Shown in pieces: positions 1,973 to 17,119 of a DNA stretch of 21,883 nt. The stretch is from a virus, in IMG/VR virus record IMGVR_UViG_3300050821_002838, positions 1 through 21,883 of that record. One strand, 5' to 3'. Numbering within the stretch: position 1 is the stretch's first letter; every line of letters starts with the position of its first letter. The notes under the pieces are model-generated. The model made no database searches. It was not told the DNA's origin and was given only the letters and a program-made list of their open reading frames with translations. A program made the position numbers and the translations under genes.

Positions 1973-1973
1973 T

Positions 1974-2048
1974 TTAGCATCCTCGGCATATGCTTGGTGG
2001 GGGCGGTGGCACCGGCGGCAAATCGTCCACCTGCGATTGCCGCTTCAT
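1974..2048 (-). CDS. 24-residue Pro-rich micro-ORF in lysis cassette
   Basis: A putative gene of 24 codons that reads MKRQSQVDDLPPVPPPPPSI plus a Cys-containing end. It starts inside an ATGA overlap with the stop of the upstream two-TM protein (2045-2048). It stops one base before the ATG of the 32-residue gene, so it fills the gap exactly. There is no hydrophobic segment and only a weak Shine-Dalgarno (GGGA). It could be a real micropeptide or simply a coupling device that carries ribosomes across the gap. Evidence is the exact fit in the overlap chain, not homology. Confidence 0.35.
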   Translation of the reverse strand: MKRQSQVDDLPPVPPPPPSICRGC

Positions 2049-2260
2049 CGTCCCAGCCTTGGCATCCCGCCATCCATCATGCCGGCGAACTGCAGCAGCA
2101 ACACGATGACGATCAGCACACCGATCACTAGGATTGCGACGCGAGCGACACGGTTAAAGGGCTCGGGGAGCGGGATTGCATCGATCAGATAGGTGAGCAG
2201 CCAGATCACCAGGCCGATCACAATCAGATAAACGACAAGCATCACAAGTGAGCCGATCAT
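2045..2260 (-). CDS. Two-TM small membrane protein (Thivi_2564-like), holin candidate
   Basis: A 71-residue protein with two hydrophobic helices (about residues 2-26 and 41-58) joined by a conserved-looking loop, YLIDAIPLPEPFNRV. The PLPEPF loop between two helices is typical of the small membrane proteins annotated as the Thivi_2564 family in alphaproteobacteria and their prophages. The start at 2260 is supported by GGAGGG six bases upstream and by an ATGA overlap with the preceding gene (2257-2260); an earlier in-frame ATG at 2293 lies inside that gene. Two helices with short ends and placement before the endolysin make it the best canonical holin candidate in the window. Function is inferred. 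Confidence 0.7.
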   Translation of the reverse strand: MIGSLVMLVVYLIVIGLVIWLLTYLIDAIPLPEPFNRVARVAILVIGVLIVIVLLLQFAGMMDGGMPRLGR

Positions 2261-2499
2261 TTCACGCCCTCCGATTTTGGACCTTGTCTGCAATCCCTAA
2301 TGTCAGTGACTAGCTTGGTAATCAGCTCGTTCTGCGTCTTGTTGCGTTCCTGCGCGTTGGCTGCGACCTCACCCAACACATAGGCGGCAAAGCCGAGGAA
2401 GCCGACATTGACTACCAGCAACGCAATCGCCAACGGCGTGGACTTCATCGCATCCACAGTGGAGACCGCGACCTTGCCGACTTCTTCGCTGACGTTCAT
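2257..2499 (-). CDS. Small single-TM protein, tandem paralogue B
   Basis: An 80-residue protein (MNVSEEVGKVAVSTVDAMKS) with a short amphipathic N-terminus, one TM segment at about 23-45 (LAIALLVVNVGFL) and a polar C-terminal helix. It is the same length as the gene just upstream (2496-2738) and aligns with it without gaps; 28 of the first 49 residues are identical by eye. It overlaps that gene as ATGA at 2496-2499. It may be a holin, antiholin or spanin-like lysis component, but no named family is claimed. Divergence of the C-terminal 30 residues suggests specialised soluble parts on a shared membrane anchor. Confidence 0.75.
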   Translation of the reverse strand: MNVSEEVGKVAVSTVDAMKSTPLAIALLVVNVGFLGFAAYVLGEVAANAQERNKTQNELITKLVTDIRDCRQGPKSEGVK

Positions 2500-2738
2500 G
2501 GTCTGTCATCCTTGGCGGGCGGAGGTGTCGACAACAGGCAGCGCTCCATCATCTCGGCCACCAGCTTGTCCTTGCGCAGCGTGTTGGCGGCAGCATTGCC
2601 CGCGAGATCGTGCAAAAACCAAGCGGCAGCCACCAGAAACATCACGTTGACGACAACCAACGCTAGCGCCAGCGGTTGCGCCTTCAGCGCCTCGACGGTG
2701 CCAGATGCGACCTTGCCCCCTTCCTCCAGCGCGCCCAT
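2496..2738 (-). CDS. Small single-TM protein, tandem paralogue A
   Basis: An 80-residue protein (MGALEEGGKVASGTVEALKA) with one TM segment at about 23-45 (LALALVVVNVMFL) and a charged C-terminal helix ending PPPAKDDRP. It is paralogous to the next gene downstream, which has the same length and an ungapped alignment. The start at 2738 lies one base after the stop of the preceding gene, so reinitiation is likely; no strong Shine-Dalgarno is seen. A longer reading frame to 2858 exists, but that extension lies inside the preceding gene in another frame and looks like shadow translation. It probably belongs to the lysis cassette. Confidence 0.75.
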   Translation of the reverse strand: MGALEEGGKVASGTVEALKAQPLALALVVVNVMFLVAAAWFLHDLAGNAAANTLRKDKLVAEMMERCLLSTPPPAKDDRP

Positions 2739-2739
2739 T

Positions 2740-3069
2740 TTATGCAGCCGCAAACGCCAACGAACGACTGTCCCAGATCGAGGCCAAGGCGAACTCGATG
2801 TCGCCGTCGGGCACGTTGGAGCCCAGCGCGGGCGGATCCGCTTCGATTTCCTGCGCAATGGTCGGGTTAGATGAGATGACGTGCGCCGAGACGATCTGCG
2901 GCTTTTCCTCGCCCCGGATCACCATGCCGGAATAGGCGATGCGTTCGGTGTGGTTCGCTGTGCCAGGGTCCTCGCTGGCGACATTCTGCGCGACTTTGAA
3001 CATGATCATCATGACGCGACCGGCAAAGGTGGGGTCTGACGCGGTAGCAATCAGATCGAGTGCGGACAT
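2740..3069 (-). CDS. Hypothetical phage protein (109 aa)
   Basis: A soluble protein beginning MSALDLIATASDPTFAGRV, with no signal or TM segment. A predicted helical N-terminus (RVMMIMFKVAQNVASED) is followed by beta-rich sequence and an acidic segment. It lies between the fibre-assembly-like gene and the lysis cassette and starts in a TGATG overlap at 3069. Proteins of this kind in similar phages are uncharacterised. Coding is supported by the tight fit and normal composition; no function is assigned. Confidence 0.7.
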   Translation of the reverse strand: MSALDLIATASDPTFAGRVMMIMFKVAQNVASEDPGTANHTERIAYSGMVIRGEEKPQIVSAHVISSNPTIAQEIEADPPALGSNVPDGDIEFALASIWDSRSLAFAAA

Positions 3070-3278
3070 CAGCCTACTCCCAGAATTTGAGCGGTTGTCT
3101 TTGCGGGCTTGTAGTCGAGTTCAGGATTGATCGGCGGCTCTACCGGATCAGGCACGCCGCCATCGGCCAGCCACTGCTCGTATTCGATCCGGTCACGGTT
3201 GGCCGGATCAGGCGGAATGTACGCCTGATCGGCGGTGCGGATCACGACGTCAGTTGCGGTAAGTTGATAATCAGCCAT
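3069..3278 (-). CDS. Small protein downstream of tail fibre, fibre-assembly-like
   Basis: A 69-residue protein (MADYQLTATDVVIRTADQAY). The segment VIRTADQAYIPPDPANRDRI followed by EYEQWLADGG resembles the IR..DGA.IP.DP.NRDY.EYL.WLA.G motif common in small proteins encoded just after phage tail fibres and in parts of tail-fibre assembly chaperones. The ATG at 3278 is preferred over the adjacent GTG at 3281 because it forms a TGATG junction with the fibre stop. It may bind the fibre tip or help it fold. That role is inference from motif and position. Confidence 0.65.
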   Translation of the reverse strand: MADYQLTATDVVIRTADQAYIPPDPANRDRIEYEQWLADGGVPDPVEPPINPELDYKPAKTTAQILGVG

Positions 3279-5074
3279 CACAACCTCGCATTCAAACTGA
3301 CGTCACTAACTGCATAACCGCCCCCCGCTGTTGTCATCGTGAGATTGAAAGTCAGTGTCGAAACATAAGCCCGGTTCAATCCGAAGGCAGAGGCATTGCC
3401 GTAAGTAACGTTAGCGAATACTGCCGTGGGCGCAATTCGCATCGGCGGTGATATCGGCCAAGATACATAGCCCACCGCACCGGTCGTAGCGTAAATGTAA
3501 AAAACTCCCCCTAGCCAAAACCGCCAGTACCGCTGGCACAGCACCAACTCGCTGGCGTAGTCCGGCACCATGAACGCGGGCGCGACATTGCCTTCGTACA
3601 ACCCGACGTCGAACAGCTCGAAGACGTTGTTGACCGTGCCCATGAAGTTGAATTGGTTGGAAGTGCCCATGCCGTTGGTCGTTCCCCATGCTCCCGCAGC
3701 CTGCTGAAAGGTGGTTCCGGCCATTAGACCCCACCGGACGTACATGCCGATGGTGCTGTCAACGTTCCACACGCCCGCTACATCACCGGGGACAATTACC
3801 GACTTGACCACATCAGTATTAGCTTCGGCCGCAGCAATGGTGTACTCAGCAACATAACTGCGATTTGCAGCAGCGTTGACGACGGACACACCATAGATTC
3901 CGGCCGGTGCCTTAACCCCAAACTGCACGATGATCGTCTTAGCGCTCGCCGAACCGAAGCGCAGATCGGCTCCTCGAAGACCTTCAATGACTTGATTGAT
4001 AGTTAGAAAGTCGTTCGCCGCAACAGTTGCGTGCGCCGTCGTTGCGGTGAAACGAATACGGTTCGGAGAACCACCGGGCGTGGAGCTTGCAACTTGTTGA
4101 CTAGTCGCTATCCCATTAATATTACATTGTTGTCCAAATTGATCGACCGGATAATACGAATTAACCGTCCCTGCCGTCGTGCCGTTCTCTTGCGACACCA
4201 TCATTGCGCCGTTGATGATGTAATTTTTCCGCATCACGCCGATGTTGGGGCCATTATTGGCTCCCAGCAGCACATGTGCAGCGACCAGATCAACACCGGC
4301 ACTTGCGAGACGTACCAGTATCCGAAAATCACCGCCGGATAACACTGGATCAGCTTGGGCCGTGAATATCTTGTATTTGGTAATGTCTATTTTGTCTTGA
4401 ACAATGATACTGAAGCCTTTTCTAAGCGAAAATGGCAATGAGGTGGTGATATCGACGCCGTTCGCCGTGAGGTGCGAGATGAAAATTTCAGTGGTGGAAT
4501 TTTGCGTGGCGTTATTGAACCGCAGCAGTCCCGCGGTCGGCGGAAATGTAATGGTGGTGGGATCGAATGAGTATTCGCCGAGCTGTGATCCCGAAGTGCC
4601 GCTGGTGCTGCTGCGGCTCCACGGACTCCAGACCCCTGCTTTCATGACCCGGATATAGTCGACAGGGTTAACCGGGTCGGTAAGATCGGTGGCTTTCAGC
4701 ACGATATTCTGCTGCACCGGGGTGTAAAGCGGCGGCGTCGGCAGCAAATCGGACGAATAGCAGATGCCGCTGAAGGCATGACCGGCGACCGGCGCGATCC
4801 CCGTGGCGGTAACTGCCGCTGAAAACGACCCCGGCATCCATACTTGACTATCCCAGTTGGTGACCACTTGCGCGGTTTGTTCGACCGCAAGATTGATCGC
4901 CGCGGTAGCCGGGCTGGTGCCGCCGGTACCGCCGGCACTGACCGGTCGCGGCAGATTGAGATCTTGGGCTACGTCATCGACATAGGAATTGTAGGGCGTG
5001 CTGGCGATCGTGGTCGAGGGTGCGCCATGGGTGCCGGGTGGTATCGAATACACATTGCTACCGTCACGGGGCAT
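3278..5074 (-). CDS. Tail fibre / receptor-binding protein
   Basis: A 598-residue protein. The N-terminus (MPRDGSNVYSIPPGTHGAPS to about residue 60) is typical of virion-attachment domains of alphaproteobacterial phage fibres. It contains the RPVSAGGTGGTSPATAA segment often seen before fibre shafts. Residues 60-280 are beta-rich and carry fibre-like KATDLTDP and RVMKAGVWSPW strands. Residues about 284-525 form a carbohydrate-binding-like jelly-roll unit (NYIINGAMMVSQENG through YASELVLCQRYW), a widespread receptor-binding module. The last ~75 residues form a beta-rich tip. The start at 5074 shares a base with the upstream stop (TAATG). It should determine host range by contacting surface polysaccharide. 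The receptor is unknown. Confidence 0.85.
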   Translation of the reverse strand: MPRDGSNVYSIPPGTHGAPSTTIASTPYNSYVDDVAQDLNLPRPVSAGGTGGTSPATAAINLAVEQTAQVVTNWDSQVWMPGSFSAAVTATGIAPVAGHAFSGICYSSDLLPTPPLYTPVQQNIVLKATDLTDPVNPVDYIRVMKAGVWSPWSRSSTSGTSGSQLGEYSFDPTTITFPPTAGLLRFNNATQNSTTEIFISHLTANGVDITTSLPFSLRKGFSIIVQDKIDITKYKIFTAQADPVLSGGDFRILVRLASAGVDLVAAHVLLGANNGPNIGVMRKNYIINGAMMVSQENGTTAGTVNSYYPVDQFGQQCNINGIATSQQVASSTPGGSPNRIRFTATTAHATVAANDFLTINQVIEGLRGADLRFGSASAKTIIVQFGVKAPAGIYGVSVVNAAANRSYVAEYTIAAAEANTDVVKSVIVPGDVAGVWNVDSTIGMYVRWGLMAGTTFQQAAGAWGTTNGMGTSNQFNFMGTVNNVFELFDVGLYEGNVAPAFMVPDYASELVLCQRYWRFWLGGVFYIYATTGAVGYVSWPISPPMRIAPTAVFANVTYGNASAFGLNRAYVSTLTFNLTMTTAGGGYAVSDVSLNARL

Positions 5075-6630
5075 TACTGCTGCTCCTCGACTGTGATGGG
5101 TGGCGGCATGAACGGCTGACGCATGGCGGACGGAGCCATCAGCGCGGCAGCGATGTTATCGCGTGATACAAATGGTGACCCTAGCAAGCGAGCCGTTGGC
5201 GGTGCAGGAATGCCCATGCCCTGCGCCAGTGGAGATCGCGCGGCGATCGCTTCTGCGGCCCGATCATAGGCCCGCCGAGTACCCCAGTCGGCTAACTTCT
5301 TTGCTGCGTATTCACTGACCGGAAGAGCGGCAGCAGCCGCTGCAGTAACCGAGGGAGGAAGGCCCATCATATGCGAGCCAAAACCTGCTGGAGCTGCCTG
5401 CACCATCAGTCCGGTCAATGATCTTGGCGCATTGGCTCCGTATCTAGCCAACCAACTGGCGTTGGAGGCCTTCTCAAGCAGTTGCCTTTCGTAATCGTTA
5501 AAACCGTAGAGCGGGCCGCCACCAGCGCGCGAGGCGTTCAGGGCCGCGGCGGAGCGATCGCGCAGGGCTTGGGCTTCGTTGCTTGCGCTAGCGGTAGGCT
5601 TGGCAGCGAATTTTGTTCCAATTTCGTCTCTAGTTCCCGCAAGAAATCCGAGCCGATGGGCGGCGGCTGTATCGCCGCGAGCGTTTGCGAGAACAGGCCC
5701 CACGAGCGTAGGGTCGTTAACATTGGACGGATGAATGGCACTCGCTGGAGGGTTTTCAAGAAACCGATCAATGCCGGCGATGGCAACGTTGGCTGCCTCA
5801 CCCTCCCTATGGCCCGGCAGGACCGCTGCCTGAGAACGGGTTCGATTGAGGGCTTGCCGAACACCTTCGATGTCGCGTGGGACGATGTAGTCCTTGGTGG
5901 TGCCGTAGGGGACGTTTGCCGCTGGATCGATCGTGCGGAGCTGGTCAACATTACTGAGTGCTTGTCCGGCATTGGCGTCGCTAATCCCTCTCGGCTTAAA
6001 TGCGCCCCGGTCAATGGCGGTGGCCATGTTGGGGCCGGTTTGTGGAGTATAGCGTACATCTAAATTATCTAGCGCATTATACCAGTTATTTCCGGACTTC
6101 TCTAAAGCATCCTCAGTAACATTCTTGATAGGACGCCAGGGATTGAGAATGGAGGCCATTTCAGGGACGGCCTGCGCACCACGAACGAGGCCTCGCGCGC
6201 CAGCCGATCCCAATCCGCCGATCAGTGCGGAGCCACCACCTTCGGCGAGCATACGGCCGATCCCTGTATCCTCCGGTAGTTCAGCAATACCAGTAGCCTT
6301 ACGGGCGATCGGCGCGATGTACGGAATTGCCGGTTGTGGCTGTGCACTTGGCGGCGTTTCCCCTGTCAGGTAGTCAAGACCTCGATTAAAGCCGTACTTC
6401 ATCCCACGCTGGATACCAGTGATTGTGTCGGGAATGCCAAATAGCGCATCAGTCGCCATCCGGCCGACCGTGTTAAACGTGCTGTAGGGCTGATCGGCAG
6501 CCTTCGTTATTGCGCTAGTGTCAGGGCCGAGCGGAGTTGGCAGTACATCGTATGGGTTGACCGCAGGCGCGACAGATGGTGCGGACTGATCGGGGAATAT
6601 GCCTTCATCGTAAGGGTTCTTATTGTCCAT
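5074..6630 (-). CDS. Candidate internal virion / ejection protein (518 aa)
   Basis: A protein of about 518 residues beginning MDNKNPYDEGIFPDQSA. The N-terminal 110 residues are disordered and Pro-rich. Next come Gly/Ala-rich helices (GRMLAEGGGSALIGGLGSAG) that could be membrane-interacting, followed by an Ala-rich helical body. The start at 6630 is supported by AGGA about nine bases upstream; the longer ATG at 6684 would extend further into the preceding gene. It overlaps that gene by 11 bases. Size, Ala/Gly-rich helices and location between a large lysozyme-like virion protein and the fibre suit an ejection protein of a podovirus. No family is firmly recognised. Confidence 0.65.
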   Translation of the reverse strand: MDNKNPYDEGIFPDQSAPSVAPAVNPYDVLPTPLGPDTSAITKAADQPYSTFNTVGRMATDALFGIPDTITGIQRGMKYGFNRGLDYLTGETPPSAQPQPAIPYIAPIARKATGIAELPEDTGIGRMLAEGGGSALIGGLGSAGARGLVRGAQAVPEMASILNPWRPIKNVTEDALEKSGNNWYNALDNLDVRYTPQTGPNMATAIDRGAFKPRGISDANAGQALSNVDQLRTIDPAANVPYGTTKDYIVPRDIEGVRQALNRTRSQAAVLPGHREGEAANVAIAGIDRFLENPPASAIHPSNVNDPTLVGPVLANARGDTAAAHRLGFLAGTRDEIGTKFAAKPTASASNEAQALRDRSAAALNASRAGGGPLYGFNDYERQLLEKASNASWLARYGANAPRSLTGLMVQAAPAGFGSHMMGLPPSVTAAAAAALPVSEYAAKKLADWGTRRAYDRAAEAIAARSPLAQGMGIPAPPTARLLGSPFVSRDNIAAALMAPSAMRQPFMPPPITVEEQQ

Positions 6631-9070
6631 ATGGCGTTCCTGCCAGTACCGCTTTCGCGTGGCCTTTGCCAAATTTACTGTCAAACAGGTTTGCTGTATC
6701 CGGATGGGCCTTCAGATAGGCAACGGCTTGGTCGCCGTACTGCATCGGCACTCGATACTGATTACGCAGCGCGACATCATTGATTGGATCGCTGGCTACA
6801 CTCAGGAGCCGGTCATTGTGCCTATTAACCGATCGAATAGTGGTATCTTCAGCAATACCAAGGAGCTTGCGTAGACTTTCCGGCTCCATCTTGATCGTAC
6901 CGCTATAGGCTTTCTCCACGAAATCGCGATCGGCATCCGAGATATTCTGGCTCCCAACTGTTGATTTGATAAGGCCGCCAGCAATTGCCTTCATGCGCGA
7001 CTGCAACATTTCAGTTGCAACGGCCGGCGCATAGTCGCCCGGGACACCGAGATTGCGCAGCATCTTACTGGCATCGAGTTTTAGTTCGGCTCCAGCTCCG
7101 GTATAAGACTGGGCCAACGCTTGCTTGGCTTGCCTGAATGTCGGCAACGTATTTGCCAATTGCTGCGTGGCGTCGTATGATTTGGACATATCTCCAACGA
7201 ATTGCTGGTATGGCACCGCACCACCGAAGCGACGCGCGATGTCAGCTTCTCGGGTCGCCGTAACGCCTGTCGCCTGTCGCTGCGCCTGGGTCTGTATCTG
7301 CTCCTGGCGCTTTAACTCCAGTTGCCGGTCCTGCTCGGTCTGGGCGCGATACTGCTCCATCAAGATCGCATCCTGCTTGGCCCGCTTCTGCTGCTCGTCC
7401 TGGATGATCTGGTCGGCCTTCATCTTGACATACGGATTGTTCGGATAGTCGATGATCGCCTTTTGCGCCGCCTGCTCGGGCGCCGATTGCGGCGTCGGCT
7501 GCGGCATCGGCCGCGGCGGTTGTTTCTCCATCACATAGCCAAACTCCGGAGATTGCGCGCCTGCGGAAGGCGGCACGGAAGAGGGCGGCACTCTTGGCTG
7601 CAGTGGAGTTTGCGCCTGCGCCAGCTGTGCGCCAGGGACAGCGAACGGAATTGGTGGATTGGAAGCGGCCTCAGGCGGCGAAGTAGCCGTCATCGCCTCC
7701 AGCGGCGAGATCGGCGGTTGCATAGGGTTTGGTTGCGGCACCTCCGAAGCCGGGGGCTGTTGGCTCATCAGTGCTTTGGCAATTGCATCACGCCCCAGAG
7801 TTGGCGCAGGGACGGCACCAATCGGCGGCGCGTCGGATGCACTATCGTTGTAGCGCGACAGCGCAGTTGGCGGATAGGCTGATGGCTGCTCGGAGTCTTG
7901 CGCGATATGGAACAGGCCAGTTTGATCCAACGAGCCCTGCCGGCCTGGCTGTTGCTGAGATGCCTGCGGAACTGCCCCTCCGAGTGCGGTATCCCTAGCA
8001 TTTTTCCATTGCTGATCAGATAGCGGATAGGGTTCTGATACCTTGGTTTCATAGCGCGACATCGCCTTGAGAAATTTCAGACCATCGTCTGACGCCAGGA
8101 ACTCTCGTGTAATCGGCGTATCACGGGGTATTCCAGTCATCTTCTCGATGATTGGCGCATAGCTCTGGCCATGCCCTACCCATGTCCCAATCAGATCCTG
8201 CATCGTCTTGCCGGAGTACTGCGGACTTTCCGCCATTTTCTTGATAGCCCCGGCGGCGCCAGCCTCCTTGCTGGGATAAACCGCTGGTGTGTCATAGGGC
8301 GTGATTTGCATGCCAGGCTTACCGCCAAACGCCGCAGCATATTTGTCGTGCCACATGTTGAACGGATTGTTGAACCGTTCGCCCGCCGCTCGCGTTTTGT
8401 CGGCAAGTTCAGCTGCCGTGGGATAAGTCCCGCCAGTAATTGAAGATTGCGGGCCTGGCGTTGCCGCAGGCGGCACTTCGGATAAATTAGGCTCCTTGAA
8501 CCCCGCCGCGTTGCCGCCGGCTGGTGCCACAGCCATTCCGGGTGGGTTCATTTGTGTTGGCGCGAACATCGACCACGGCTGTTTTCCCGGAGGCGTCGTG
8601 ATTGACGGCGGTGGTGTCATGACGGGAGACAGAGGCGAGCTAACTTCCCTCTGCCCCTTTGCCATTTCGTCAGCGCCTAGATTAGGATTAACGTTGACGT
8701 CTTCCGCTGAAACGCCAGGCGGCAGAACCGCCGTGTCGATCGCCTTCGACGCTGGTGTCTCTACATCGTCATCAGACGGCGCATAAGCCGATTTTTGACC
8801 CGCACTCTCCGGCGCGTTACTTTCCGTAGGGGGGACTGCTGGCGCTACACCTCCAATATTTAATCCCCTGGCTTGCGCCTGCTGCGCCACATCCGCGCTC
8901 TGCAACATCCGCATCATGCCGATGTCGCCCATGGCGTCGCCGATCGAGGCCAGTCCCTCGCCCAAAGTCTTTGGATAGCCTTTCTTCTGCGACAGCATCG
9001 CCATGGCAATGCGCTGGCGCAGTTGCTGGTTGACATTGGGGTCATTACCCCAGAAGAAACCTTCAGCCAT
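6620..9070 (-). CDS. Large virion protein with lysozyme-like (structural muramidase) domain
   Basis: A protein of 816 residues, probably an internal or tail-tip virion component. Residues 1-65 are helical. About 65-225 is Pro-rich linker. About 229-344 resembles the lysozyme-like domain of phage structural peptidoglycan hydrolases (GERFNNPFNMWHDKYA, then PSKEAGAAGAIKKM and TMQDLIGTWVGHGQSYAP). About 380-540 is a second long Pro/Gln-rich linker. About 545-620 is a Gln/Arg-rich coiled coil. The C-terminal ~195 residues are helical. I cannot point to the catalytic Glu with confidence. The ATG at 9070 forms TGATG with the preceding stop and is preferred to the GTG at 9073. Expected role: local cell-wall opening during DNA entry. 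Confidence 0.75.
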   Translation of the reverse strand: MAEGFFWGNDPNVNQQLRQRIAMAMLSQKKGYPKTLGEGLASIGDAMGDIGMMRMLQSADVAQQAQARGLNIGGVAPAVPPTESNAPESAGQKSAYAPSDDDVETPASKAIDTAVLPPGVSAEDVNVNPNLGADEMAKGQREVSSPLSPVMTPPPSITTPPGKQPWSMFAPTQMNPPGMAVAPAGGNAAGFKEPNLSEVPPAATPGPQSSITGGTYPTAAELADKTRAAGERFNNPFNMWHDKYAAAFGGKPGMQITPYDTPAVYPSKEAGAAGAIKKMAESPQYSGKTMQDLIGTWVGHGQSYAPIIEKMTGIPRDTPITREFLASDDGLKFLKAMSRYETKVSEPYPLSDQQWKNARDTALGGAVPQASQQQPGRQGSLDQTGLFHIAQDSEQPSAYPPTALSRYNDSASDAPPIGAVPAPTLGRDAIAKALMSQQPPASEVPQPNPMQPPISPLEAMTATSPPEAASNPPIPFAVPGAQLAQAQTPLQPRVPPSSVPPSAGAQSPEFGYVMEKQPPRPMPQPTPQSAPEQAAQKAIIDYPNNPYVKMKADQIIQDEQQKRAKQDAILMEQYRAQTEQDRQLELKRQEQIQTQAQRQATGVTATREADIARRFGGAVPYQQFVGDMSKSYDATQQLANTLPTFRQAKQALAQSYTGAGAELKLDASKMLRNLGVPGDYAPAVATEMLQSRMKAIAGGLIKSTVGSQNISDADRDFVEKAYSGTIKMEPESLRKLLGIAEDTTIRSVNRHNDRLLSVASDPINDVALRNQYRVPMQYGDQAVAYLKAHPDTANLFDSKFGKGHAKAVLAGTPYGQ

Positions 9071-9315
9071 CACACACCTGCCCTTTGTGCATAATATTTA
9101 TCACGCTCGTCCTGTGCGTCCTGTAATTGCTGAGCATACTCAGCCTGCTGTGCCTGTTGCTGTTGCGCCTGAAAACTAGTCTGTATCGGATTTTGCGCTG
9201 GGGCTGGTGGTGTCCCCATCAACTGAATGGCTATTCTGTTGCGCATTACAGATTGTGGTGTCTGCGGCGAATTAATGCTGCCTAGCATGGGCAATCGTTG
9301 CATAAGTCCCGGCAT
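9070..9315 (-). CDS. Small Gln-rich structural-region protein (81 aa)
   Basis: Begins MPGLMQRLPMLGSINSPQTP and ends in a Gln/Ala-rich helix (QAQQQQAQQAEYAQQLQDAQ) likely to be a coiled coil. It sits between two large virion genes and shares one base with each through TGATG junctions at 9070 and 9315. The ATG at 9315 is preferred over the GTG at 9318. The helix resembles the Gln-rich parts of its neighbours, so a virion or assembly role is likely. No family is recognised. Confidence 0.65.
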   Translation of the reverse strand: MPGLMQRLPMLGSINSPQTPQSVMRNRIAIQLMGTPPAPAQNPIQTSFQAQQQQAQQAEYAQQLQDAQDERDKYYAQRAGV

Positions 9316-10649
9316 CACCCTGCCCTCAAGATTGAACCCATGACCTGCCTGTGATCGAGATGCTTGATGCCGCCGATCTCGGTGACGGCGCTCGGATCGA
9401 TCTGCTCAACATCCTGCGCCATCGGCCCGACATGCGGCGTATTGGTCGGATCGGCCTTGAAATTGTACTGATAGATCGGCAGTTGCTTCTTTTGCCCGGT
9501 CGGCGTTGCTGCAAACACCGTCGCAATCCGATTGATGTTGTCTTTCAGGCGGCGGTCGGACGCGCCGAGCTTGGCGGCGCCGCCGACCATCCCCAAAATG
9601 CCGCCCATCAGCGAATTGTAGTTCTGACTCTGCTGCTGGTAGACCTGCATGTTCTGGTTGAATTGGTTGTTGATCAGGCCGGCGACATCGGTAGTTGGGA
9701 TCTGGTTGGACGGCGTGTTGACAAAATTGGGGTTGGAAACCTGAGTACCCGACAACAGGCTGGTGATCTGGTTGATCGGAGCGTTTTGCGCCGCGTACTG
9801 CTCGGTCAGCCACTGATTGCGCGCCGTATTCTGGGCGCCGAAGGCGGCCTCGGCTTGCTGCAATTGTGCCTGCTGCGCGGTGTTGGCGAATTGGCCCTGG
9901 GTGGCGGCCTGCTGAAAGGCCTGCCCCTGCGCCGCATTCTGGAACCCGGCCTGCTGCTGCTGAATGCCCATTTCGGTGGCGCGCTGCTGCGTCGCGCCAG
10001 TGACAGCCTGTAGCCAGGCGTTATTTTCTTGCTGATTGAACGGCGTAAAGGCGTTGTTGTACGCCGTGCTCCCGTATCCGATGCCCTGGTCGGCCAGTTG
10101 CTGTTGCAATTGCTGCTTTTGAATATCGAGTTGCGGCTGCAGTTGCCCCATCAGGGCTTGCTGAATACCGGCCTGACTGAAAGTCGGATCATCGCCGTAA
10201 GTTTTGGTGATATTGCTGGCGTTGGCGAGGCCGCTAGTGTCGATCTGAGTCTGCGGCCCTGGTGTGCCGGCAATGGTGCTGGCCTGTCCTGCTGCCGGCG
10301 CCGCGCCTAGATTAACGCTGTTGGCCAACAGCCCCGGCAATCGTGCCGACTGGGCATTGCCAAGCCCCGCCAGATTGAGCTGTGCGGCCTGGTTCTGATT
10401 CTGGATCGCCTGCTCCTGCGGCGACAGCGTCGTGGTCGCGGTAAACCGCGGAATGGTATAAGTGGCTCCGGTATTGGGATCGCTCCATTGATAATTGCCG
10501 CTCTGGTCATAGTTCAACGAGCCAGTCGGCGTGTTCTGGTTGGTATTGTTGAGGAACGCATTCGCTACCGAGGTGCCGACATTAGTTGCTGTCGCCGCGC
10601 CAGCGGTGGCAAACGGATCAGGCGGGCTAGGGGCTGAGGGCTTTCCCAC
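9315..10649 (-). CDS. Virion protein with C-terminal S74 intramolecular chaperone domain
   Basis: A 444-residue protein. The first ~75 residues (ATNVGTSVANAFLNNTNQNT, SLNYDQSGNYQWSDP) are typical of podophage proteins annotated as tail fibre domain-containing. About 75-360 is Gln/Ala/Asn-rich helix, probably a long coiled coil. Residues 364-440 are a peptidase S74 (endosialidase-type chaperone) domain with SDRRLKDNI, YQYNF, HVGPMAQDVEQIDPSAV and a final helix. The Ser364-Lys369 dyad needed for self-cleavage is intact, so the mature protein is probably trimmed before SDRR. The gene starts with GTG at 10649, supported by AGGAG six bases upstream; no better ATG exists nearby. Confidence 0.85.
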   Translation of the reverse strand: MGKPSAPSPPDPFATAGAATATNVGTSVANAFLNNTNQNTPTGSLNYDQSGNYQWSDPNTGATYTIPRFTATTTLSPQEQAIQNQNQAAQLNLAGLGNAQSARLPGLLANSVNLGAAPAAGQASTIAGTPGPQTQIDTSGLANASNITKTYGDDPTFSQAGIQQALMGQLQPQLDIQKQQLQQQLADQGIGYGSTAYNNAFTPFNQQENNAWLQAVTGATQQRATEMGIQQQQAGFQNAAQGQAFQQAATQGQFANTAQQAQLQQAEAAFGAQNTARNQWLTEQYAAQNAPINQITSLLSGTQVSNPNFVNTPSNQIPTTDVAGLINNQFNQNMQVYQQQSQNYNSLMGGILGMVGGAAKLGASDRRLKDNINRIATVFAATPTGQKKQLPIYQYNFKADPTNTPHVGPMAQDVEQIDPSAVTEIGGIKHLDHRQVMGSILRAG

Positions 10650-10658
10650 GATCGACTC

Positions 10659-11075
10659 CTATTGCGGCTGCCCCATGGGCGGAATTTGCCCCGGTGCACC
10701 GGGTGGCGGCATTGGTGGTGGCACACCGGCCTGCGGGGTTTGTGGTAACGGCATTTGCGGCGCGCCTTGCGGCGGCATCGGTATCGGCTGCTGCGCGCCC
10801 AGATTGGGCACCGGACCGGGCATCGCGCCAGCCTGTGGCGGCTGACCACCGAGCGGCGGCGCTGGCATCGGCGGACGCGGCGGCATACCCGGCGGCATAC
10901 CCGGCGGCATACCCGGCGCACCTTGTGGCAGCGTTGGAGTCATTCCGACGCCGGGGGTTGGCCGCATCCCCTGAGTTGGCGGAACTGCCATTCTGGGCGG
11001 TGGGTTCTGCACATTCATCAATGCTTGGGTGATGGCATTGCGCTGATTATTCTGCATCGGGCTGAGCATCGGCAT
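10659..11075 (-). CDS. Pro/Gly/Met-rich low-complexity protein
   Basis: A 138-residue protein. The first ~30 residues are helical (MPMLSPMQNNQRNAITQALM). The rest is almost only Pro, Gly, Met, Gln and Ala, including GMPPGMPPGMPP encoded by a perfect 12-base tandem repeat. The start at 11075 is marked by a strong Shine-Dalgarno, AGGAG seven bases upstream; the longer frame to 11123 lies inside the GNAT-like gene. It is probably a disordered virion or assembly protein, or a flexible collagen-like linker. The repeat tract invites length variation between related phages. The low-complexity sequence makes homology uninformative. Confidence 0.7.
   Translation of the reverse strand: MPMLSPMQNNQRNAITQALMNVQNPPPRMAVPPTQGMRPTPGVGMTPTLPQGAPGMPPGMPPGMPPRPPMPAPPLGGQPPQAGAMPGPVPNLGAQQPIPMPPQGAPQMPLPQTPQAGVPPPMPPPGAPGQIPPMGQPQ
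10879..10914 (-). repeat. Perfect 12-bp tandem repeat, three copies
   Basis: GGCGGCATACCC (plus-strand view) occurs three times head to tail at 10879-10890, 10891-10902 and 10903-10914 without mismatch. It encodes the PPGM units of the Pro-rich protein in frame. Perfect identity suggests recent slippage or expansion. Confidence 0.95.
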
Positions 11076-11085
11076 TATAAATCTC

Positions 11086-11571
11086 CTACTCGGCCGCTTC
11101 GGCCATCTGCTCGTCCGGAACATGATGCCGGAGGCGTTTGTTGAATTTGTTGTTGCACCAGTCTTCGTAAGTCAGACACGCCAGCACGCCGTCTTTGTCG
11201 CGACCGAGTAGCCGCGGGATTTTAATCAGGCTGTAGCCGTATCTTGCTAGGATGTAGAGCAACTGTTCGTTCTCGGCCGGATTGCGTTGCACCACCATCT
11301 GGCAGCCGATTTGCAAAAACGGATACTGATACATCCGTCGCAATGTTTCACGTGAAAGCCAGTATTTATGCGGTAGCGCCGCGCCCGAAATCTCGATAAC
11401 ACCGGCTGCCGGGTCCCAGTTGTGATAGACAATGCCAGCAATCAGCCGACCATCCTCAACCACGCCAATCGCCTTCGAAGTATCCGGAAAACCCAGCATC
11501 CGGCACGACGGAATCATCTGCGAGACAAAATCGCAAACCGCTGCATCATGTCCGTAAACGTAACCGAGCAT
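11086..11571 (-). CDS. GNAT-like acetyltransferase-fold protein in the virion operon
   Basis: A 161-residue protein beginning MLGYVYGHDAAVCDFVSQMI. The layout fits the GNAT fold: an N-terminal helix, a strand pair IGVVEDGRLIAGIVYHNWD, a strand GVIEISGAAL, a helix WLSRETLRRMYQYPF, the strand/helix QMVVQRNPAENEQLLYILAR and the strand GYSLIKIPRL. The classical acetyl-CoA loop (R/Q-x-x-G-x-G/A) is not obvious, so it may be non-catalytic. GNAT-like proteins at this operon position are known from podophages (the T7 gp13 family is one example), where they act in virion assembly. The Shine-Dalgarno is weak. It follows the moron on the opposite strand and precedes the Pro-rich gene by 10 bases. Confidence 0.7.
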   Translation of the reverse strand: MLGYVYGHDAAVCDFVSQMIPSCRMLGFPDTSKAIGVVEDGRLIAGIVYHNWDPAAGVIEISGAALPHKYWLSRETLRRMYQYPFLQIGCQMVVQRNPAENEQLLYILARYGYSLIKIPRLLGRDKDGVLACLTYEDWCNNKFNKRLRHHVPDEQMAEAAE

Positions 11572-11615
11572 CAGCTTTAAACCTATTTTGTCATCACCAT
11601 TCCAAGAGACAAATC

Positions 11616-11921
11616 ATGAAATCCCTCATAATCACGGCGGCACTGCTTGTTTTGGCAGTACCGGCCGCTGCTGCTAAACAGCCAATTCCGACAGTCGTGC
11701 TGCGAGATATCTACGCCCTCCACAAGGCATACTTCCTTTGTTACCAAGCCGATCCGGCTCAACATCCCGCTGAGGAAATTAAGAAAGCATGCCCTACCGT
11801 TGACCAATTGCTGAAAAAACTGAAGACGCAGGGATATTGTGGTATCGGCCATATTGGCGTAGGCCGGTCCAGTAAAGACGGGAAACATTGCTACGCTATG
11901 CATTATCCAATCCCTCAATAG
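11616..11921 (+). CDS. Secreted four-Cys protein, moron (lysogenic conversion) candidate
   Basis: A 101-residue protein with a clear Sec signal peptide (MKSLIITAALLVLAVPAAAA, then KQ; cleavage probably after Ala20). The mature part of about 81 residues has four cysteines (Cys42, 59, 75, 92 of the precursor) that could form two periplasmic disulfides, and the motif YCGIGHIGVGRSSKDGKHCY. It is the only plus-strand gene inside the late operon. It has 44 bases before it and 17 after, consistent with an independently transcribed moron expressed in the lysogen. No convincing promoter or terminator could be assigned. Possible roles are changing the host envelope or superinfection exclusion. The reverse-strand frame here (11583-11930) is judged a shadow. 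Confidence 0.8.
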   Translation: MKSLIITAALLVLAVPAAAAKQPIPTVVLRDIYALHKAYFLCYQADPAQHPAEEIKKACPTVDQLLKKLKTQGYCGIGHIGVGRSSKDGKHCYAMHYPIPQ

Positions 11922-11938
11922 TTGCTTCATACCTACTA

Positions 11939-13756
11939 CTAACGCGCCTTTTGATTGTAGGCCGCAGCTATGCTGTTTAGCGTGACATTGCCGTTAGCAT
12001 CACGCAAATCCCTGGCCTGCGCCGCTGCTGTAGCGCCAGTAAGGATAGGAATTGTCGTGTCGCCTCGCAGAAGACCTGCCATCCACGGCGCATTAGCGGT
12101 TGCAACTGGATTGAAGTTAAGGGCCTGCAACACGCTATACTGTATAGGAACGTCGTATTGGCCAAGAACAAGACCCGGATTGCGAGCCAGGGCACGAGCG
12201 GCCATGTCGTTATAGGAGTAGATCTGGTCAGCAGGAGAAGCTTGTTGATATTGCTGGAAGGTCAGTCCGCCCAAGGTACCGCCAGCATCTTTGAACTGAC
12301 CGCTTGACATCTGCCCCAGACCCCAGTTGCCATACATATTCGATCTCGGATTCCAATTGCTCTCTTCCTGGAATAGGGCTCCGAGAGCTGCCGGATCTAT
12401 TCCCAGCGAACCGGCAGTGGATTTAACCCCACTCAGTACATCAGGGTTATTGCCTCCGCCCTTTTGCCACCACGGAGTGGGCGTCGCCCCTTGCTGGAAA
12501 GTGTTGTAATCATTGCTAGGACTGACGAAATCGGCCATGCCGAATGAATTACGCCCCTCGTTTTGGCCATACTGCACATAATGCAGGTTGGCGAATTGCT
12601 CCTGATTTCCGCCCGCCGCCTGCGCCGCGCGCAGAACGTCGGGATTGGCAATCAGATACTGATCCTCGGGGCTTATCCCCAGTCCGTAGCCGCCGCGTCC
12701 TTCGTTTTGGCCATAGTCCAGGTAGTGTTGCTCCGCAAATAGCTCAGGGTTCATCCCTGAACTCCCCGCAGCGGCAGCTACATCAGGGTTGGCGGCAAAA
12801 TATTGTTGGGTTGCAGTTTTGAGATAAGGATTGTCGCTTAGATACTGCTGTTCTGGGTTTGCCGTCAGCCCCATCCCGGCGCGACCTTCATCGAAGCCAT
12901 AATTAACGTAGTGCTTTTCTGCATACAAATTGGGATCCATCCCGGATGCCGCAGCTGCGGCAGCCACATCTGGATTGGCAGCAAAATATGCCGCCGCAGG
13001 GCCAGTGGCCGTTTGAGACGGACTACCAACGAGTCCAAATCCCTGACGCCCTTCGTTCTGGCCGTAATTCTGGAAGTGCTGCTCCGCATACTGCAGCGGA
13101 TCCATACCGGACGATGAGGCAGCAGACGCAACATCGGGGTTGGCCTGCAGATATTGCTGAGCGGCTCCGCTGAGCCAGGGCTGCTCCTGACCCCAAGCCA
13201 TGACAGGAGGACTGCCGCCTCCCGTGGTACCAAAATACGGATCGACACCGCCTTGACCAAACGGAGAACCACCGCCGCCATAATACAATCCACCAGGTGA
13301 ACCTGAGTATGGCTCCATAGTAGCGCTGCCACCACTTGGGGTAGGAGCGTAGGTATTGGGATCAAATGCACTTTGATTGGTGCTCCAATTATAGGGGCTC
13401 AACATTCCGCCGGTATATGGATCAGACCACCGCTGATCAAATGTAGCAGCTTGATTGCCGCCAAAAGTATCACCACCATAAATGCCGTAACTCGCAGCCG
13501 GCGACACCGGAGTTGAAGAATAGGGGTCGCCGTAATAGCCGGTGGCACGACCGTAAGCCGCGCCCATTCCGGAATAATAATCCGTCAGACTGCCAAAGCC
13601 GCCGCCACCATACAGCGTAGCGGGGTTATAAGAAGCTTGGCTTGCGTTGTTGACGTAGTTCAGGTTGGCGTTGTTCTGTGCCGCGTAATTTGGATTGCCG
13701 GCGAAGTAGGCGCCGCCACCAAAACCCATGTTGGGAATGCCGCTGACATCCACCAT
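11939..13756 (-). CDS. Virion protein with four repeats and a lytic transglycosylase (SLT) domain
   Basis: A 605-residue protein. Residues 1-190 are Gly/Tyr/Ser/Asn-rich low complexity. Residues 199-408 hold four ~44-residue repeats of the type YF.ANPDVAAAA..SGM, then AE.HY..YG.NEGR.G.GL. Residues ~440-605 resemble a soluble lytic transglycosylase: GIDPAALGALFQEESNW with Glu464 or Glu465 as the likely catalytic acid, then GNWGLGQMS and a helical end ALNFNP to NSIAAAYNQ. The enzyme should cleave peptidoglycan during DNA entry; the repeats may be structural or adhesive. The start at 13756 is supported by GGGAG eight bases upstream. It is three bases from the preceding stop. Fold assignment is by motif only. 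Confidence 0.8.
   Translation of the reverse strand: MVDVSGIPNMGFGGGAYFAGNPNYAAQNNANLNYVNNASQASYNPATLYGGGGFGSLTDYYSGMGAAYGRATGYYGDPYSSTPVSPAASYGIYGGDTFGGNQAATFDQRWSDPYTGGMLSPYNWSTNQSAFDPNTYAPTPSGGSATMEPYSGSPGGLYYGGGGSPFGQGGVDPYFGTTGGGSPPVMAWGQEQPWLSGAAQQYLQANPDVASAASSSGMDPLQYAEQHFQNYGQNEGRQGFGLVGSPSQTATGPAAAYFAANPDVAAAAAASGMDPNLYAEKHYVNYGFDEGRAGMGLTANPEQQYLSDNPYLKTATQQYFAANPDVAAAAGSSGMNPELFAEQHYLDYGQNEGRGGYGLGISPEDQYLIANPDVLRAAQAAGGNQEQFANLHYVQYGQNEGRNSFGMADFVSPSNDYNTFQQGATPTPWWQKGGGNNPDVLSGVKSTAGSLGIDPAALGALFQEESNWNPRSNMYGNWGLGQMSSGQFKDAGGTLGGLTFQQYQQASPADQIYSYNDMAARALARNPGLVLGQYDVPIQYSVLQALNFNPVATANAPWMAGLLRGDTTIPILTGATAAAQARDLRDANGNVTLNSIAAAYNQKAR
12533..13162 (-). repeat. Four protein-level repeats (ANPDVA...HY..YG..EGR)
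   Basis: Four imperfect copies of a ~44-residue unit lie at residues 199-242, 255-298, 316-359 and 365-408 of the 605-residue protein. Each has A-N-P-D-V near the start and H-(F/Y)-x-x-Y-G-x-(N/D)-E-G-R near the end. Copies 1-3 are closest; copy 4 is more diverged (RAAQAAGGNQEQFANLHY). A partial start (QQYLSDNPYL) precedes copy 3. Similar ANPDVA/YG..EGR units occur in some bacterial surface and secreted proteins. Confidence 0.85.
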
Positions 13757-13759
13757 GGC

Positions 13760-14404
13760 TCAACTCCCGAACGGTACTGGCTGAGTCTGGCCCCACGTCA
13801 CGCCATTCTGCGCCGCCGTCAGCCCGGGATAAGAGCCGTTGACCATGGTCGGCAGATAACCGTAGCGCTGCAGATGCGCCTGCGCGTAAGCCTGCAATTG
13901 ATCATTGAAGCTAGCCTGTGCCGCCTGGTTTTTTGCCACCTGCTGCGCGATGGCGGCACGGCGCGCCGTGGGATCGTAAGGCGTACCTTGTGCCTGGGCC
14001 CGCAGTGCCGCCGGATCCACCATGCTGTCACCATAGATTTGATTGCTGGGGAGCGGCACACCAGGACCACCAAAATTGGGCTGTCGCGCCTGTGGCGGCT
14101 GCCATGCACCCGGCATCGCGGTGGCGTCGACATCAGCGCGGCTCATGCTGTGCGCGGCATTCCAGGCGGCAACGGCATCCTGCGAAGGCTTATATCCGGC
14201 GATGTAAGCCGGCGCGAACAGATCGCCCATCGCGCCTTGCTGCTTGTAAGCTTGATAGATGTCAGGCTGCGCCGGCGGCGGGGCGCCTTGTGCGGCCTCG
14301 GCCAGCGCAATCGCCGCCGGCAACGAGTAGCCGGCATTGGCGGCTGACGCAGGTCCGGTTGCGGGCGCGGAGGACGCTGCCGATGAGGCCGACGATGCCG
14401 CCAT
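13760..14404 (-). CDS. Uncharacterised virion protein (214 aa)
   Basis: Begins with an Ala/Ser-rich stretch (MAASSASSAASSAPATGPAS). It then has Ala-rich helices, a Pro-rich centre, a basic helical segment (ARRAAIAQQVAKNQAAQASF) and a C-terminal region ending GQTQPVPFGS. The start at 14404 has AAGGAG nine bases upstream. It lies between the tail nozzle and the SLT virion protein, where P22-like phages encode ejection proteins or chaperones. No signal or TM segment is seen and no family is recognised. A small internal virion protein is the best guess. Confidence 0.65.
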   Translation of the reverse strand: MAASSASSAASSAPATGPASAANAGYSLPAAIALAEAAQGAPPPAQPDIYQAYKQQGAMGDLFAPAYIAGYKPSQDAVAAWNAAHSMSRADVDATAMPGAWQPPQARQPNFGGPGVPLPSNQIYGDSMVDPAALRAQAQGTPYDPTARRAAIAQQVAKNQAAQASFNDQLQAYAQAHLQRYGYLPTMVNGSYPGLTAAQNGVTWGQTQPVPFGS

Positions 14405-14417
14405 TTTTTCTTACTCC

Positions 14418-16400
14418 TTAGACATTGACGCCTTCCACATTGTAGGTCGCTGCCAGCGAAATCAATTCCACACTGGGACTGGCTTTTTGCGCTACCACAA
14501 CCTGAACGATCGGCGCATGCGAGTAACCGGTAGCGCCAACCGATACCCAGCCGGTATGCCTCACCGTTGTCAGATTGGCCGCAGTCGCATCCCACTTCGC
14601 ACTATCCCACAAGCCCTGATCCCAGACATCCAGCACCCCGGGATCCGGCCCCGGACTGGGCGGCGTCTGTAAGGTGATGTTGTAATCGACAGCAGCAGAA
14701 ATCAGCGGATTGAATGGCTCGGTAGGCAGCGCGACAAATGACGCGCGGGTCTGAAACCAGGTCACGGTCTGTGATGGCGACTGAAACATCTCCCAGCCGC
14801 CAACCATGATGGCAGTATACGGCTTACCATTATCGTAGCCGGTGCGGTCAGCCTGCATGATGAAACCGGTCTGGGTGCCGAAAAACATGTCACCGCGCAT
14901 CCGGCAAAAACACACTACATCCCAGCTGTAACGACACCAGGCGCCGGTCGCGGTATTGACCACGCCGCAATACTGATTGCCAACCGCGCCACCCGGCCAA
15001 CTCGCGAACATGCCGCCATACTCGTCCCAGCGCTGCAGTGTCCACGGCAAGATATTGTTGACCAGTGCCGTGTTGCGCCACATCTGGCGAATATTCTTGG
15101 TGATCATCGCCAGTTCAAGCTGCCCGGAGTCCTTGGTGATGGCAGCTGAAATCGGCGCAATACCGTCAACGGTAGCAATCAGGAGATCGCCGCCGAGCGT
15201 GGTATGGGCATTCATACCCATCGGGACGCCGACAAAATAGCGACCCTCCTGCCGCCAGTTGGCGGCGTCGCTTGGATTGGTGCCGGTGAAGATCAGCGCC
15301 TCGCCCTGATCGGTATAAAATACACACTTGTCATCGATGCCGTCGCCGGCGTCGACCGACCACGCCGCGCCGAACAACAGCTTGCCGCCCTTGCTGGCGG
15401 CGCCGGACAACGGAATCATGCTCAATTGTCCGCCTACCGTATTGGTCGGCAGGTACCACGCGTTCATGCTGCCGCCCTCGATGAAAAACCATCGATTGCG
15501 ATACTTCCAGACGTAGACAAGGTTGCCGCCATTGACGACCGTCGTTCCTGGCGGCCCCACCAGGTAACCAATGCCATCAGTGGCTGAATCCGCCACCCAG
15601 AAGGTCGGATGCGCGGCACGATCTGCCGCAAATGTGCCGGTACCGCTGGTGTGTCCTATTGCGCATTTCCAGCGCGAATTGTCCGTGGCATCGAGCGCAC
15701 GGGCGTTGACCGCGTAGACCGTACTAACAATCCAGGCCGCCGGTGTCGTGGTGGCCAGCGTTGCCCACGTACTGCCATTGAACCGCAGCGGCGGGTCACC
15801 GGCATCGTTGACCGCCAGCAACCAGTCACCGCCCTGGGTAGCCAGTTGCGAGACACAGTAGTTGCCGCTGGCCTGACCGGACTTCACCAAGGTCGGCGAG
15901 CCGAAGGCGGTGATCTCGAACAGTTTGCTGGCATTGGCGGCAAACATTCGTGACACGGCGCCGCTGACATATTGAAAGGCCGAAATCACCGGCAGTCTGG
16001 TCACGGTTGAGCTGGCATTGCTCCAATAGGTTGGATGCGCTGTGCGATCGGCTGGAAACGTCGTCGGCGACGCCGCACTGGTATGATTAACCGCCACTGT
16101 CCAGAACGAGCCGTCAGTATTGTCATAAACTTTTGTACCTGCGGTATAAGCGGTCGCGTTGCCCCAGGCTGGCGCATCAAGCGCATGCAGATCGTTCCAT
16201 AAAATACAGCCGCCCCGCAGCGCCAAGCCGCGCAAAGTTGGCTTCCAGTTGTCGAGCTGCATCGCGCCGCCAGGCTGCATGAAAGTATAGTTTTCGCTTT
16301 GGACAATGCCGCGAATGGGCGCTGGCAGCGTCGTGGTTTGCAACTTCTGCGCCACCTGATCCGGAACGGCCTGGCGCCGGAATGCCTGATGCTGGCTCAT
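14418..16400 (-). CDS. Tail nozzle / tubular hub protein (podovirus)
   Basis: A 660-residue protein. The N-terminal segment APIRGIVQSENYTFM followed by GGAMQLDNWKPT and LRGLALRGG matches the motif that opens podophage beta-propeller nozzle proteins (functional equivalents of T7 gp12 or P22 gp10): a Gly after PI, a QLDNW core and an R-x-G strand. Two similar inserted modules lie at about 79-126 and 223-268, each ending HTS..TF.ADR.AHPT.W. Propeller-like strands follow (e.g. VFYTDQGEALIFTGTNPSD, TVDGIAPIS). The gene starts at 16400 in an ATGA overlap with the adaptor gene. It should close the short tail and hold fibres. The role is assigned by motif and order after the adaptor. Confidence 0.8.
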   Translation of the reverse strand: MSQHQAFRRQAVPDQVAQKLQTTTLPAPIRGIVQSENYTFMQPGGAMQLDNWKPTLRGLALRGGCILWNDLHALDAPAWGNATAYTAGTKVYDNTDGSFWTVAVNHTSAASPTTFPADRTAHPTYWSNASSTVTRLPVISAFQYVSGAVSRMFAANASKLFEITAFGSPTLVKSGQASGNYCVSQLATQGGDWLLAVNDAGDPPLRFNGSTWATLATTTPAAWIVSTVYAVNARALDATDNSRWKCAIGHTSGTGTFAADRAAHPTFWVADSATDGIGYLVGPPGTTVVNGGNLVYVWKYRNRWFFIEGGSMNAWYLPTNTVGGQLSMIPLSGAASKGGKLLFGAAWSVDAGDGIDDKCVFYTDQGEALIFTGTNPSDAANWRQEGRYFVGVPMGMNAHTTLGGDLLIATVDGIAPISAAITKDSGQLELAMITKNIRQMWRNTALVNNILPWTLQRWDEYGGMFASWPGGAVGNQYCGVVNTATGAWCRYSWDVVCFCRMRGDMFFGTQTGFIMQADRTGYDNGKPYTAIMVGGWEMFQSPSQTVTWFQTRASFVALPTEPFNPLISAAVDYNITLQTPPSPGPDPGVLDVWDQGLWDSAKWDATAANLTTVRHTGWVSVGATGYSHAPIVQVVVAQKASPSVELISLAATYNVEGVNV

Positions 16401-17119
16401 GGCGCCCCCGTAGGTACCGGATACGGATAGGCAATATTTGTGGTGATCCACGCCTGCGAAATCGGTCCACGGCCGATCAGGATCGGCGACGGTGTGTCGT
16501 TGCCAAGCAGATAGGTCAAGTGGTCATTATAAGTGGAAAGATCCTCGGCATAGGGCGAGCCCTTCTGGGCCTTCCATTGCCAGATCATGCCGAGTTTCAG
16601 AATTCTGTCGCCTAACAAAAAACTATCGCTATCAGACGCAAAACTGTCACCGACACCACCCGACGCCAGCGTAATGCAATTCTTGTCGAGATAGGGGAAA
16701 GTCACGGTAACCCCGGCGCCAGGTGTCGGCGCAATCACCATCTGGCCGCCGATATTGGTCCACTCGCCCCAGGCATTGAACCAGTTCATGGCACGACGCT
16801 GGATCCACTCATCAAGGTCTGGAGTGAAAACCATCGGATGCAGTGCCGATGTCGAGCGCCAGACATTGCCGTTCAGCAACATGCGTTTGAAATTGACCGG
16901 ATAGCTGAATGTCGTGGTGACGCCATCGCCGGTGAAAACATTAATCTTCTTCAGTTTGTTCCATTCTCTTTGATCGCTGGCGATCCGTCTCGCCATCTCG
17001 TTGGCGAGGCTTAGCATCTCCTGCATGGTGCGGTTGGCGCTGATGCCGGAAAACACCGAACCCGGCGAGGTTACGCCAACGGTCAGACAGACATCCTGCA
17101 CCACCGACAATAAGGTCAT
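16397..17119 (-). CDS. Tail adaptor / head-tail connector protein
   Basis: A 240-residue protein (MTLLSVVQDVCLTVGVTSPG). It has the typical adaptor layout: an N-terminal helical bundle (RTMQEMLSLANEMARRIASD, then QREWNKL), a beta region with FPYLDKNCI, and a late helix with LGDRILKLGMIWQWKAQKG and YAEDLSTYNDHL. This pattern is shared by podophage adaptors (T7 gp11 / P22 gp4 equivalents) that sit below the portal. It overlaps both neighbours by ATGA: with the 236-residue gene at 17116-17119 and with the nozzle at 16397-16400. The direct nozzle partner downstream supports the call. Confidence 0.8.
   Translation of the reverse strand: MTLLSVVQDVCLTVGVTSPGSVFSGISANRTMQEMLSLANEMARRIASDQREWNKLKKINVFTGDGVTTTFSYPVNFKRMLLNGNVWRSTSALHPMVFTPDLDEWIQRRAMNWFNAWGEWTNIGGQMVIAPTPGAGVTVTFPYLDKNCITLASGGVGDSFASDSDSFLLGDRILKLGMIWQWKAQKGSPYAEDLSTYNDHLTYLLGNDTPSPILIGRGPISQAWITTNIAYPYPVPTGAP

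Follow-up and report, generated by a model that had tools for sequence, protein, structure and literature searches.

Little is known of the way in which the ejection proteins of phages locate the cell wall and stay on it. The window, which is the whole stretch of 21,883 nucleotides of an IMG/VR virus contig analyzed here, raises this question through a single open reading frame (ORF) of 605 codons, in which a low-complexity N-terminus, an array of short repeats, and a domain resembling SLT enzymes follow one another. What could such a protein do? The reading favored here, on which our confidence is evenly balanced, is that it is an accessory and probably virion-borne peptidoglycan hydrolase of a short-tailed temperate alphaproteobacterial phage, with re-used, envelope-associated beads that most likely aim it at glycans.

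The ORF occupies positions 11939-13756 on the minus strand, with an ATG at 13756 and a stop codon at 11939-11941. The first 195 residues (13172-13756) are rich in Gly, Tyr, and Ser and are probably disordered, as judged from their composition. With 21% Gly and 10.5% Tyr, this region bears out the description in the initial annotation, which had called it Gly/Tyr-rich and of low complexity. The encoded protein has a pI of 4.3, contains no Cys, and is free of strongly hydrophobic segments. Neither the full protein nor its C-terminal domain had a significant match when compared with the proteins of cultured phage records, and the full protein had no match to HemolysinCabind, the RTX family of Gly/Asp-rich nonapeptide calcium repeats.

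The C-terminal domain and its presumed active site

The only Pfam family found for the C-terminal domain (aa 431-605; 11942-12466, minus strand) is SLT (PF01464), with an E-value of 0.058 that does not reach the cut-off, and the same family is the sole, likewise sub-threshold match (E 0.029) for the one homologue of the enzyme domain that was found, at the related locus L105. The scores are 13.4 and 14.4 bits for the domain and the homologue, respectively, against a curated cut-off of 21.3, and the domain is therefore called SLT-like here rather than a member of PF01464. The two homologues share 35% identity and keep the ES, GLxQM, and A-x-N-F-x-P segments. The Glu of the ES motif, Glu465 (codon at 12362-12364, minus strand), is the presumed catalytic residue and does not vary across L105 and two phage SLT domains. 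It is followed by the GLxQ motif, which reads GLGQM at aa 479-483 of the window protein and GLAQM in L105. In hhalign, the catalytic half aligns to the two phage SLT domains at 96%, compared to 0.1% for a reversed control; these two domains were found by the same motif, and the alignment is thus supportive rather than independent. Collectively, the sole Pfam family and the hhalign result suggest that the C-terminus is probably an SLT-type domain, as had been proposed from the sequence at the outset, and it may be enzymatically active, presumably through Glu465.

A different interpretation is that the C-terminus is a degenerate, inactive relative of SLT enzymes and that the protein is a structural or surface component of the virion, for example an adhesin-like decoration, which cuts nothing. 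The sub-threshold Pfam score fits this idea, as does the finding that only the N-terminal half of the domain aligns to canonical SLT domains; the third motif, C-terminal A-Y-N-x-G, is degenerate in both homologues, where it takes the form A-x-N-F-x-P (ALNFNP in the window) and lies outside the hhalign alignment. In addition, the fold model of the C-terminus, built from an input of two sequences, is poor (pLDDT 54) and matched no solved structure. Against this, the Glu-Ser and GLxQM motifs are kept in a homologue of such low identity, and SLT is the only family matched by both proteins. We therefore regard an inactive domain as unlikely.

Other assignments were considered and rejected. Armadillo matches of the C-terminus in the PDB consisted of single stretches with E-values of at least 17 in the three matches that were aligned, and a SleB-like hydrolase, suggested by eye for the L095 C-terminus, lacked Pfam support. 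The SLT-domain pair had no match in 298 genomes of a single order, a result that is uninformative.

A variable slot between tail and ejection genes

The ORF stands within a long series of genes on the minus strand. In the order of transcription, these encode a 411-aa protein that is scaffold-like by position, the major head protein, a 240-aa protein, an SU10-type adaptor, a 677-aa tail/neck protein (14418-16451; phrog_5107), a 214-aa protein (13760-14404), the 605-aa protein, an N-acyltransferase (11086-11571; phrog_4470), a Pro-rich protein of 154 aa, an S74 virion protein (9315-10649) that is a relative of DNA ejection proteins, two proteins of 817 and then 536 aa, and a tail fibre. A separate phage lysozyme for lysis is encoded at 1320-1928, and the 605-aa protein is therefore not needed for lysis; a tyrosine integrase is found at the left end. 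The name 'amidase', which the 677-aa protein carries in PHROGs and in some records, is probably an annotation error; other records name it tubular tail protein B, stabilization protein, or head-closure protein.

The 677-aa gene and the acyltransferase gene form the upstream and downstream borders of a slot whose length varies from 0 to 3.0 kb among the 55 loci that have both borders. The slot is empty of annotated genes in four cultured relatives, Rhizobium phage RHph_Y25, Sulfitobacter phage pCB2047-C, EBPR podovirus 2, and Bradyrhizobium phage ppBjS10J-1, in which the tail gene is followed directly by the acyltransferase gene. Where it is filled, its contents change fast and are mostly low-complexity, Gly/Pro-rich proteins; homologues of the 214-aa protein, the other occupant in the window, are present in many slots. 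The same SLT domain was seen in only one of the 55 complete slots of relatives, that of L105. Repeats within the slot were found in the window, in L009, whose three units are the closest to those of the window, and more weakly in L095 and L097; L009 had been chosen because it bears repeats, so that these counts are not an estimate of frequency. The slot of the 605-aa gene is thus hypervariable, with the tail/neck gene on one side and the block of acyltransferase and ejection-protein genes on the other.

An alphaproteobacterial host is likely, given that Rhizobium, Bradyrhizobium, and Sulfitobacter are among the hosts of the cultured relatives identified with the 677-aa protein, and that a homologue occurs in 15 of 298 genomes of one alphaproteobacterial order. 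The gene position also suggests that the 605-aa protein is located in the virion. In this respect, it is comparable to gp16 of phage T7, an ejection protein with an SLT domain, of a kind for which swapping between ejection proteins has been documented (PMC8954989). In both cases a short-tailed phage would have the gene for an SLT-type wall enzyme, probably so in the window, in its ejection/tail block. However, the SLT domain is N-terminal in gp16, whereas here it is C-terminal and preceded by the low-complexity region and the repeats. The sequences of the two proteins showed no relation to each other, and it is from gene order that the virion location is deduced in the window.

A repeat shared by phage proteins and bacterial surface and sugar-polymer proteins

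The repeat array (aa 199-407) consists of four full units of approximately 44 residues, at aa 199-242 (13031-13162), 254-297 (12866-12997), 316-359 (12680-12811), and 364-407 (12536-12667), and a half repeat, EQQYLSDNPYLKTA, at aa 302-315 (12812-12853) between the second and third units, all on the minus strand. The four repeats that the initial annotation had pointed out are real, with mutual protein identities of 45-68% and pairwise scores 16-26 SD above those of shuffled repeats; the half repeat, which can be read directly in the sequence, had been overlooked. Among the four units, 17 of 45 columns are invariant. The identity between the copies at the DNA level (49-65%) is not higher than that of the protein, suggesting that the duplications, and hence the array, are old.

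A profile search with the repeat, which had been suggested together with its annotation, matched no known family above threshold in Pfam, NCBIfam, PHROGs, or PDB; Pfam matches to MHB and PGA_cap were below the cut-off and were rejected. No paper describing the repeat or its occurrence in ejection proteins was found in a search of the openly accessible literature. The whole 605-aa protein did not match any PHROG profile either, including phrog_598 / P22 gp7, with which it has the repeat alone in common.

The repeat had been taken to be unusual in an ejection-type protein, which is contradicted by its recurrence in the parts of phages that enter the envelope. When viral contigs were scanned for the window repeats, at least 80 loci were found, and at least 82 carrier ORFs, that of the window included, fall into about 21 sequence clusters; all such scans were pattern-based, and their counts are lower bounds. 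Among 57 carriers scanned, 18 match phrog_598 ('DNA ejection'), five phrog_6121 and two phrog_4287 (S74 / DNA ejection), and two Pfam P22_gp7, and four tape-measure families are matched by one carrier each, proportions that are only indicative because patterns derived from the repeats of the window had served to pick the carriers. For the majority of the phrog_598 carriers that were viewed singly, the match to the profile continues across the repeat and includes some 50 or more surplus residues, which is insertion-like. Similarly, the S74 proteins of L010, L017, and L152 have a unit inserted at one site, where the S74 protein of the window has none. In the Caulobacter phage CcrSC, one unit is part of a tail protein whose domains include Phage-tail_3 and Rcc01698_C (GTA hub) and whose gene adjoins that of a cell-wall hydrolase. 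A single unit is usual in phage carriers, and its presence or absence varies between close relatives. The 605-aa protein therefore shares with the phrog_598 / P22 gp7-type and phrog_6121 S74 proteins a module inserted in one or several copies within the ejection block, but it is outside these families and adds the SLT-like domain; no SLT-like motif was found in the other repeat carriers among the 82 phage ORFs. As a separate observation, two ORFs of a human-gut contig labelled as phage (L005, MT836085.1), at 1451-3817 and 10624-14331, have seven and ten divergent copies, respectively, so that the repeat family extends past the phages of alphaproteobacteria.

The likeness to repeats of bacterial surface and secreted proteins, which had also been noted early on, was supported and extended. 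In searches by tblastn and with profiles, the repeat was found on plasmids of Azospirillum, Methylobacterium, Rhizobium, and Bradyrhizobium, where RTX, M10 metallopeptidase, and glycosyltransferase proteins carry it. These units have the same signature as those of the window, Y-x-x-x-N-P-D-V ... H-Y-x-x-x-G-x-x-E-G-R, of which Y, D, H, G, and R are invariant and N and E nearly invariant in 93 repeat units. A genome scan with a closer subset of the repeats, rather than the full diverse alignment, gave 294 relatives, 80 of which were kept, mostly from Alphaproteobacteria, and a short form of the repeat was present in 19 of 249 genomes drawn from the phylum. RTX repeats accompany it in 14 of 63 bacterial carriers, followed by glycosyltransferase families, secreted proteases, and cadherin/Ig adhesin domains. 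Three bacterial carriers are surrounded by O-antigen, rhamnose, or polysaccharide genes, some of them in O-antigen/exopolysaccharide loci. Glycosyltransferases are cytoplasmic, and carriage of the repeat by itself is therefore not proof of an envelope location. The bacterial arrays often consist of six shorter units with RTX or glycosyltransferase partners, in contrast to the four longer units of the window, and exactly six units were counted in 42 of 106 bacterial carrier ORFs. In the examples printed from L178, L189, L235, L172, and other bacterial loci, a longer linker follows the third unit (3+3), and the six-unit arrays could form a closed ring or a two-lobed domain. From these comparisons of sequence, the repeat is a re-used and unnamed module common to envelope-entering parts of phages and to bacterial surface and sugar-polymer proteins. 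It offers a concrete handle on how the wall is reached, as one compact, testable domain with a fixed signature that recurs in ejection proteins, in tape measures, and in the tail tip of GTA-like type, and that bacteria have in proteins for export and for sugar polymers.

Beads, spacers, and the proposed mechanism

The array was modelled with AlphaFold2, separately from the C-terminus and with an input that included 36 relatives. The array model (mean pLDDT 80, pTM 0.44, with linkers of low confidence) gives separate beads of three predicted helices each on a string whose overall arrangement is undefined; in the first unit, the helices are placed at aa 193-205, 207-216, and 220-232. Foldseek matched no solved structure with this model, and among viral models the most probable match was a glycosyltransferase of Hyperionvirus, a weak one (probability 0.94, E 0.16, 28% identity) that points faintly to glycan enzymes.

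The initial annotation had suggested that the repeats may form a solenoid that binds the wall or spans the periplasm, and a rigid, periplasm-spanning form of this was weighed. Helical units do stand in tandem, and the frequent count of exactly six in bacterial carriers makes a closed or stacked form conceivable there. In the model, however, the units are separate and the pTM is low, linkers of 6-18 residues and a broken half repeat lie between them, and most phage carriers have a single unit. The solenoid was rejected on the basis of the model and of this single-unit norm, and we consider it very improbable.

The flexible linkers that join the beads are also what would be expected if the repeats were passive folded spacers, which add length to an ejection or tail protein that is disordered, withstand the passage through the tail, and bind nothing. 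The usual single copy, its presence or absence between close relatives, and the tolerance of the slot for many unrelated low-complexity proteins are in line with such a role. On the other hand, the invariance of five residues across very different hosts and partner domains exceeds the needs of a spacer, and an insertion of one copy lengthens a protein little. Passive spacing thus seems somewhat unlikely, and the association of the carriers with glycans suggests instead that the beads may contact these polymers.

The hydrolase with glycan-directed beads could work as follows. The 605-aa protein would be packed with, or attached to, the ejection apparatus, and its disordered N-terminus and bead-like repeats would allow it to be packed and threaded out alongside the ejection proteins. 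In the envelope, each repeat would fold into a compact three-helix bead, and the beads would most likely keep the enzyme at the glycans of the envelope or direct it to them. The SLT-like domain could then cut glycan strands locally through Glu465, so that the DNA conduit crosses the wall. This proposal draws on the position in the head/tail/ejection operon and the slot comparison, on the Pfam, motif, and hhalign evidence for the C-terminus, and on the recurrence of the repeat in phage ejection, tape-measure, and tail-tip proteins and in bacterial surface and glycan-related proteins.

A linked small ORF and minor features of the block

Between the SLT gene and the acyltransferase gene, an ORF of 101 aa with a signal-peptide-like start and four Cys is located on the plus strand (11616-11921). 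A single homologue was seen in about 168 loci, that of L105, which shares 32% identity with it and keeps all four Cys. Position and orientation agree as well, since in both loci the ORF converges with the SLT gene and diverges from the acyltransferase gene. L105 is also the only locus with the same SLT domain; under random placement among the 55 complete slots, the chance of the coincidence is about 1 in 55. The linkage could be explained by joint inheritance of one cassette, which does not require a functional link. No relative of the 101-aa protein turned up in a pattern-based scan of viral contigs, and its family is not common in the sampled order, where one weak, broken match was obtained among 298 genomes.

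The ORF is possibly a moron or a superinfection-exclusion gene. In phage T4, the small periplasmic protein Spackle inhibits gp5, the tail lysozyme, and shuts out superinfecting phage (PMC7677548). The window pair resembles this system in working principle only, as a wall enzyme of the virion, a probable one in the window, accompanied by a small secreted, Cys-containing phage protein; the PDB sequence searches showed no relation of the 101-aa protein to Spackle, and inhibition by it is hypothetical. A bolder idea combines two proposals: unrelated phages would have repeatedly captured an unnamed, glycan-directed three-helix module for their envelope-entering proteins, and the SLT-like carrier and the four-Cys protein would form a cassette that, in a lysogen, blocks the enzyme of later phages, a Spackle-like self-immunity pair of independent origin. 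We judge the combination quite improbable, but the linked secreted protein makes self-immunity testable.

Further features of the block were seen in passing. The 817-aa protein (6620-9073, minus strand) contains a stretch, FNNPFNMW...GGKPGMQITPY..., which by eye resembles an 'NNP'-type virion muramidase and has no Pfam support. In pCB2047-C and EBPR podovirus 2, the place that the 817-aa gene has in the window, next after the S74 gene, is taken by genes annotated as endolysin and peptidoglycan hydrolase, and the block of this phage may therefore contain two wall enzymes. The 214-aa protein ends with QAYAQAHLQRYGYLP, which is close to the tandem units YRQAHYDRYGYYP in a slot gene of another relative (L109:9680-11494); this is another slot repeat, perhaps related to the last helix of the main repeat. 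Finally, a motif of the type R-x-A/R-I-A-x-A-L/M-M occurs five times (RNAITQALM, RNRIAIQLM, RQRIAMAML, RDAIAKALM, and RAAIAQQVA) in four neighbouring low-complexity genes on the minus strand (6620-9073, 9070-9318, 10659-11123, and 13760-14404). The pattern was written after the cases had been seen; shuffles give 0.05 expected occurrences with a maximum of 1 in 1000, and 25 occurrences were counted in relatives compared to none in one shuffle. The motif could be a shared docking or packaging peptide.
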